A stretch of DNA of 64,000 nucleotides from Sulfurovum sp. (GTDB lineage: Bacteria; Campylobacterota; Campylobacteria; Campylobacterales; Sulfurovaceae): assembly GCA_027068485.1 (NCBI GenBank), contig JAMOSB010000033.1, forward strand, positions 1 through 64,000, in the 5' to 3' direction. The translations under genes were made by a program, and so were the position numbers. Below are positions 53,677-54,744 of this stretch, piece by piece (position 1 is the first letter of the stretch; each line of letters opens with the position of its first letter). The notes under the pieces are model-generated. The model was not told where the DNA came from. It saw only the letters and a program-made list of their open reading frames with translations, and searched no databases.

Positions 53677-53884
53677 AGGGGGAGAACTCCAGATTTTATT
53701 TTGCGTTGATTATAGCATAGTTCCCCCTAGTAACCAAAATAATTTTTGTGAAGAGTGGTTAGGGTGATGCTCTTTGAGTTGTTTCTTTAATGCCTAGATA
53801 GTGACAATAACTGTAAAAATAACGGTTAATGCTCCAGAATTTTTATTTAAAAAATCTATGTATTCTATGAAATATCCTTTTTTC

Positions 53885-53990
53885 TTATAACGGGGGCGCG
53901 GGTGAGCAACGCCCACATGGCAAAGCTTGGTTTGGCTGGTGGGTGATTGCTCCTCCCGCTTGTTGTCTGGTGCGGAGCGTCCAGAGCAAC
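53885..53990. repeat. GC-rich long imperfect palindrome, attC-like, plus adjacent hairpin
   Basis: AAC-GGGGGC-GCGGG-T-GAGCAA-C-GCCCAC ... GTGGGTGA-TTGCTC-CT-CCCGC-TT-GTT; then GTTGTCTGG-N10-CCAGAgCAAC, in otherwise AT-rich intergenic DNA. Confidence 0.45.
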
Positions 53991-54035
53991 TATTTAATAG
54001 AGGACATTGTGTCTGATGATTTTAGGAGTAAATTT

Positions 54036-54122
54036 ATGGAAATTAAAAAAAAGTTATTAGATATTGTGCGTGATAAGATTTGTGTAAAACATTACAGTAT
54101 CTGTCTAAATTCTAAATTCTAA
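54036..54122 (+). pseudogene. Truncated integron-integrase-like (IntI) N-terminal remnant
   Basis: SD TAGGAG then MEIKKKLLDIVRDKICVKHYSICLNSKF*; matches the IntI N-terminal pattern 'LLDxVRDxIRVKHYSIRTE' with both Arg as Cys (CGT->TGT). Confidence 0.55.
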
Positions 54123-54127
54123 ATTCT
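54104..54127 (+). repeat. 7-bp tandem repeat TCTAAAT x3
   Basis: TCTAAAT TCTAAAT TCTAAAT TCTT at the point where IntI similarity stops. Confidence 0.9.
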
Positions 54128-54237
54128 TAAGGTAATCCTCTCATTTAATAATATTTTACTATACATAATCTCTACTTTCTTTAGTATACTTGTTCTATTC
54201 CCCTCTACTATCAATACAATCGTATATCATTTTTATG

Positions 54238-54732
54238 TTAAAGTGGTGCGTAGGGGAGCGTGACGATATTGTAGGCATTGGGGAGTGTGGGAGAGGGGAG
54301 GGTTTTCCATCTTTTGGTGAGTTTGGCTTGGAGGGCGTTACTTAGGGTGGTGAGTTGTTTGTGGGCATCTGATAGCTTCATCGGCTCTACGGGGATAAAG
54401 AGCTGAATCTTCTGAGGCTCTGCTCCTTGGTAGAGGTGATAGGTGGGGATACCGAGTGTGGGTAGGAGGTATTTGGTGAGGTGGCAGAAGCGTTGAGCCT
54501 CATCACCTTTGTACTCGATGACGAGATAGCGGGTTTTGCCCTCTTGGAGTAGGGGAACGGCGATCGTGTAGTCACGCTGAAGATGTTGGGTGAGGAGTAG
54601 GGGGGTGAGGGGCTCCTCTATGCGTTCAAATTTGGCATAGAAGGTACGATTGTCAAAGGAGATACGCTGGACAATCGTACGGCGTTTGATATAGTAGCAG
54701 GTATCATAAAGCTCTAGATCAAAAACTTCTAT
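54238..54732 (-). CDS. DUF1882-like conserved Campylobacterota protein with no canonical start codon
   Basis: Open frame after glyA stop: (ATA)EVFDLELYDTCYYIKRRTIVQRISFDNRTFYAKFERIEEPLTPLLLTQHLQRDYTIAVPLLQEGKTRYLVIEYKGDEAQRFCHLTKYLLPTLGIPTYHLYQ...; AGGAGG SD just upstream. Confidence 0.7.
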   Translation of the reverse strand: MEVFDLELYDTCYYIKRRTIVQRISFDNRTFYAKFERIEEPLTPLLLTQHLQRDYTIAVPLLQEGKTRYLVIEYKGDEAQRFCHLTKYLLPTLGIPTYHLYQGAEPQKIQLFIPVEPMKLSDAHKQLTTLSNALQAKLTKRWKTLPSPTLPNAYNIVTLPYAPL

Positions 54733-54744
54733 GATACCCTCCTG

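Follow-up and report, generated by a model that had tools for sequence, protein, structure and literature searches.

The sequence analysed here, called the window throughout, is a 64,000-nucleotide stretch of Sulfurovum sp. (positions 1 to 64,000 of contig JAMOSB010000033.1, our contig C33 of the 1.73 Mb genome G000). Comparison with relatives supports the view that positions 53888-54122 of the window are a wrecked chromosomal integron, consisting of a truncated neighbouring cassette, a structured and gene-less cassette (called Y below), the core of the attachment site attI, and a ribosome-binding site (RBS) followed by the first 22-23 codons of the integrase gene intI. As there is no intact integrase gene but just these N-terminal codons, the locus is termed a remnant rather than an integron. 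Integrons serve bacteria for capturing genes, and a decaying one is by itself unremarkable; most of this work concerns Y. The features of the locus are as follows, P1 to P5 being the stems of the Y fold described below.

53794..53887, minus strand: probable truncated open reading frame (ORF) of the next cassette (...KKKGYFIEYIDFLNKNSGALTVIFTVIVTI, then a stop), in the position and direction of cassette ORFs beyond the element in relatives
53888..53891, plus strand: far boundary TAAC, the bottom strand of a G^TT cassette junction; nearly all copies of the element have a (T/C)AAC boundary
53892..53990, plus strand: Y cassette, a deletion copy with about 100 of about 156 nt (covariance model R1); the strand listed corresponds to the array's bottom strand
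53898..53959, plus strand: long hairpin, the P2/P3 arm closed by GCGGG/CCCGC, which the first-pass annotation took as attC-like (DNA fold, 0/200 shuffles as stable)
53962..53990, plus strand: chimeric hairpin of the P4 5' half and the P5 3' half, with a deletion junction near 53978 (alignment with whole copies L051, L052 and L058)
53991..53998, plus strand: attI core remnant TATTTAAT; relatives with intact intI carry TATTTATT upstream of the gene, after the element or the first cassette
53999..54035, plus strand: intI 5' untranslated region with RBS AGGAG at 54024-54028 (alignment with L052, L054, L055 and L057; distance comparison)
54036..54104, plus strand: intI pseudogene fragment, codons 1-22/23
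54104..54129, plus strand: TCTAAAT-type tandem repeat (direct repeat family D3) at the intI break point

Positions 54036-54122 encode MEIKKKLLDIVRDKICVKHYSICLNSKF, followed by a stop. This peptide had been described as IntI-like by the first-pass annotation, made from the sequence alone, and indeed it is identical at 20 of 28 positions to the start of the intact integron integrase of a congener (L053, G012:C28; E = 2e-11). The tblastn match to IntI covers 22 residues and stops at the TCTAAAT repeat, where the similarity had been said to end. Two Arg codons had also been reported as altered. The first position is Arg in relatives (DKIR), as proposed, but the second is Ser or Lys. Downstream of the break, tblastn detected no further IntI fragments up to 54260, and about 300 codons of intI are gone from the window. 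Moreover, no protein of the host genome exceeded the TIGR02249 cut-off, so that an intact IntI was not found there either.

DNA similarity to several congeners sets in before the intI ATG, some 35-40 nt upstream. The remnant is thus homologous to intI and to its upstream region by both DNA and protein comparison. In relatives, the conserved TATTTATT located about 253 nt upstream of intI is the point where cassettes join, and from these junctions we infer that this core is attI. The core also adjoins intI in the window, at a reduced spacing: it lies 45 nt upstream of the gene, which corresponds to a loss of about 208 bp of spacer. Intact intI genes with the same N-terminus, the TATTTATT core and the structured element were found together in other Sulfurovum-type genomes. 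The proposal of a vestigial integron therefore holds, and the GC-rich element is not an unrelated dispersed repeat, since it accompanies intact intI in relatives.

The palindromes of the window were then compared with whole copies of the element. Covariance model R1, built solely from relatives, matched the window at 53888-53991 (E = 2e-6 in the host genome), and positions 53874-53985 are 91% identical to G036:C31. The two hairpins (53898-53959 and 53962-53990) fold with z = -4.3 on the plus strand and -3.6 on the minus strand, none of 200 shuffles being as good on either strand. The long hairpin previously placed between AAC and GTT at 53885-53968 is thus real, but its AAC starts at 53889 and the GTT near 53968 does not end the element, since whole copies continue beyond it to another GTT and their terminal hairpin. 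The second hairpin, at 53962-53990, is also present, but as a chimera of P4 and P5 halves created by deletion. Alignment with whole copies indicated that the window copy is short of about 50 nt near its GTT end. The P4/P5 fusion removed the 3' half of P1, leaving the long hairpin that had been read as an attC. An ordinary attC is ruled out for this palindrome: covariance model R2, made from the attCs of local arrays, gave no canonical attC in the window up to E 0.1. The palindrome instead represents a branched cassette without a gene, in a copy shortened by deletion.

The whole Y cassette is about 156 nt long and gene-less. Its P1 stem closes two arms (P2/P3 and P4) and is followed by the terminal hairpin P5, forming a three-way junction plus a hairpin with 57 pairs in total. 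Among 59 distinct copies, two-sided changes were observed in 47 of the 57 pairs, and 94.2% of cells were paired, compared to 80.1% in shuffles and 39-46% when partners were slid, although copies sharing descent do not provide independent events. The R-box sequence GTTNNN was identical in P4 and P5 in 64 of 76 related copies, against 20 in shuffles. The two arms thus seem to be maintained in the same form, either because Y arose by fusion of two minimal cassettes or because either arm can be used. Rfam returned nothing relevant for the window, its relatives or the Y element, and no group II intron match for Y.

The pairing is strongly asymmetric between strands. G·T cells outnumber A·C cells by 253 to 26, about 10:1 in favor of the bottom strand, and the strand running in the direction of intI was the more stable in 40/40 copies with both RNA and DNA parameters. 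This strand is the bottom strand of the array, which is the one known to be recombined by integrases (PMC2727003). Ordinary attCs of the same arrays (n = 20) displayed the same preference (39 vs 5). As the bias is shared with ordinary attCs, its simplest reading is that the folded bottom strand is under selection for recombination. RNA may also be made from Y in the bottom-strand direction.

The position of Y was analyzed in 90 contexts. By a strict rule, 32 copies lie directly at attI and 38 directly at a canonical attC; the remaining 20 are mostly looser versions of these sites, a few being reverse-strand shadows of other copies. Beside attI or attC, both ends of Y carry the junction that delimits a cassette, G^TT, which reads AAC on the bottom strand. 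In G295, the near end of Y is CTAC and is matched by GTAG in P5, but the far AAC is unchanged. The near end thus covaries with its hairpin partner and the far AAC does not, indicating that the latter belongs to the neighbouring cassette. Three tandem copies with shared boundaries are present at attI in G097, and three identical copies are located between different cassettes in G335; from sequence, these tandem and repeated copies are suggestive of mobilization by IntI. Where the sequence upstream of an integrase gene is long enough to tell, Y is the first cassette at some loci but not at others, and is therefore optional.

Integrases exceeding the TIGR02249 cut-off are present in 20 of the 78 genomes of the genus, with fragments in many more. 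Congeners have intact ones (E about 1e-124; two proteins at 415 and 417 bits for a cut-off of 265). With the covariance model, Y was detected in 13 of these 78 genomes; for the order, the count was 23 of 299 genomes, corresponding to 11 of 81 genera and six families. Y is thus a conserved part of integrons in several sulfur-oxidising Campylobacterota families, and its carriers include a cultured Sulfurimonas, S. indica NW8N (L199). The exact Y pattern occurred in 63 stretches across 84,980 species genomes, nearly all from Sulfurovum, Sulfurimonas, Nitratifractor and unnamed Campylobacterota. A plasmid search with the window block gave no match, and the pattern was absent from the viral contigs searched. 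Several congeners (L062, L065, L066, L067, L069) contain two to four attI-like Y heads with no intI nearby; heads seem either to multiply or to lose their integrases repeatedly within one genome. Y cassettes were also seen in contigs of metagenome-assembled genomes labelled Gracilibacteria and Peptostreptococcaceae (L214, L240, L217, L223, L251). The Gracilibacteria-labelled contigs contain long ORFs ending at TGA, and one of the source datasets, 4559-240, also yielded Y-bearing Sulfurimonas/Campylobacterales bins. Mis-binning is therefore likely, and no spread of Y outside Campylobacterota is claimed.

The host genome contains a second decayed integron head (G000:C7:173390-173471; L102:5391-5472), with a deletion copy of Y, an attI-like core and an intI RBS. 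A start beginning MEIK follows this RBS and is fused to another ORF. An HNH-endonuclease cassette lies on the far side of the head, and a near-identical HNH fragment is found on contig C17 (L258). The other end of contig C7 carries a strong canonical attC (C7:107-173, 74 bits with model R2), which adjoins the end of a small ORF and a transposase-like zinc-binding fragment. A weaker attC match was obtained with the same model at C17:978-1046.

Altogether, we consider it quite probable, on the basis of sequence comparison, that the window holds a dead chromosomal integron whose first cassette is the gene-less Y, mobilized by IntI and kept as a recombination substrate. IntI would formerly have captured cassettes at the attI of this locus. 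Deletions would subsequently have taken away the spacer between attI and intI, about one third of the first cassette, and the greater part of both intI and the neighbouring cassette. The units moved would be bounded by the G^TT junction, nearly their whole length being taken up by the branched structure into which the array's bottom strand folds, and IntI would move Y as a cassette through this folded strand. The comparisons show that the locus derives from an integron and that Y is one family, and they establish the fold, strand bias, position and distribution of Y. Both the role of IntI as the agent of movement and the persistence of Y through recombination are deduced from these comparisons: as a recombination substrate, Y may be efficient or hard to lose, and may persist for that reason and not for anything it encodes. 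A further and more tentative proposal is that Y is a recombination-only cassette whose duplicate R-box sequences allow two alternative attC-like folds. Such a cassette, selfish or switch-like, could occupy attI and spread gene-less through Campylobacterota integrons.

Y resembles an attC in having a bottom-strand fold with R boxes bearing AAC and GTT. Several results nevertheless weigh against its use as a substrate of IntI. Model R2 detected dozens of sites in the arrays but gave no match to Y. The pairing of P1 in the most stable fold extends as far as AAC/GTT itself and leaves no room for the unpaired central spacer common to all characterised attCs. In V. cholerae attC, full pairing of the central spacer lowers recombination (PMC2727003). 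A split fold, with two tandem hairpins each located between AAC and GTT, would contain a central spacer, but it is on average about 11 kcal/mol less stable and the most stable fold beats it in 77 of 78 copies. Finally, the common descent of the copies reduces the weight of the covariation and R-box agreement counts given above.

Other explanations were weighed against the same data. The remnant itself might be a XerD- or XerH-like fragment beside an unrelated GC-rich repeat, the remainder of IntI being just 22-23 residues long. However, both DNA and protein match the IntI of congeners specifically, the order and type of spacing are those of intact integrons, and a second decayed head of like make-up is present in the same genome, so that this explanation is already contradicted and hardly credible. 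Concerning Y, it could be a regulatory cassette, either a non-coding RNA or a terminator/insulator, merely carried by IntI. At attI, P5 followed by TATTTATT does resemble an intrinsic terminator facing intI (L176:6402-6432), and Y occupies the first position in about 40% of contexts. Yet about half of the copies lie inside arrays, the wobble pairs favor the bottom strand, whereas transcription from the cassette promoter reads the other one, and Rfam gave no match; the like strand bias of ordinary attCs is accounted for by recombination alone. A regulatory cassette is thus unlikely.

Y might also be a small element resembling a miniature inverted-repeat transposable element (MITE) or a repetitive extragenic palindrome (REP), and depend on another transposase, for example an insertion sequence (IS) enzyme of the IS200/IS605-type Y1 or IS110 type that targets the folded bottom strand of attI/attC. 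As part of this explanation, insertion would occur 3' of (T/C)AAC with no target duplication. The layout of the boundaries, in which the left tetranucleotide would be the target and the right one a copy carried by the element, suits an IS200/IS605-type insertion as well. Moreover, a REP-associated Y1 transposase gene (PF01797) and an IS110-family gene lie beside intI in G016, and an identical IS110 gene adjoins another Y-attI head (loci L058:9079-11229 and L069:1721-2800). These two genes are, however, absent beside further integrons with Y, for instance L053 and L055, and TAAC/CAAC must be frequent genome-wide, whereas nearly all copies of Y are at integron junctions. The preference for attI and the tandem copies are explained by IntI alone. 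We therefore regard a foreign transposase as very unlikely, and mobilization by IntI as the preferred explanation.

Regarding the flanks of the remnant, no homologues were found for the truncated neighbour ORF (53794..53887), which by its position is a probable cassette ORF. The first-pass annotation had placed the block between a SPOR gene and a DUF1882-like gene considered to be neighbours elsewhere. These genes are adjacent in congeners G003 and G027, but other genes separate them in other congeners, indicating that the site is variable. No integron was detected at this site in the relatives examined, where the gap contains efflux-pump genes, other genes or nothing. The DUF1882-like gene itself (54238-54744) is open, with ATA after a good RBS where relatives start with TTG.

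Campylobacterota are already among the phyla with integrons (PMC8618304), and gene-less cassettes are known too. A description of the Y element was not found in the open-licence literature searched, and Y appears to be an undescribed variant of the gene-less cassette, not a new kind of system. In integron theory a cassette is a gene plus an attC, and an attC is a single hairpin with a defined bulge. If the interpretation preferred here is true, Y would serve to test the actual structural requirements of IntI and the possibility that integrons have parasites of their own. Y is also a marker for integrons with a decayed intI, and it exposed two dead heads in the host genome, which lacks an intact IntI.

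Congeners of the host share intI, attI and attC-bordered cassettes with sedentary chromosomal integrons, and the window resembles clusters of attC sites lacking integron-integrases (CALIN) in having lost intI while keeping attachment sites. Unlike CALIN, it has not even a canonical attC, its best-preserved parts being a gene-less structured cassette and an attI core. Group IIC-attC introns and IS1111-attC insertion sequences occur specifically at integron attachment sites, as does Y, which in contrast to them carries no reverse transcriptase or transposase gene. With attC sites, including the Vibrio cholerae repeats (VCR) and other taxon-specific families, Y has in common the AAC...GTT ends, a folded bottom strand, a G after AAC and the strand bias. 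However, these sites form a single imperfect hairpin, while Y forms a three-way junction whose stable fold has no unpaired central spacer, and Y is not matched by model R2, made from attCs of the same arrays. Finally, the ORF-less cassettes known from Vibrio and the oral metagenome are, like Y, bounded by integron recombination junctions. Those cassettes are diverse in sequence and have promoter activity, whereas Y is one family across 11 genera, with a near-fixed length and a strongly conserved fold.
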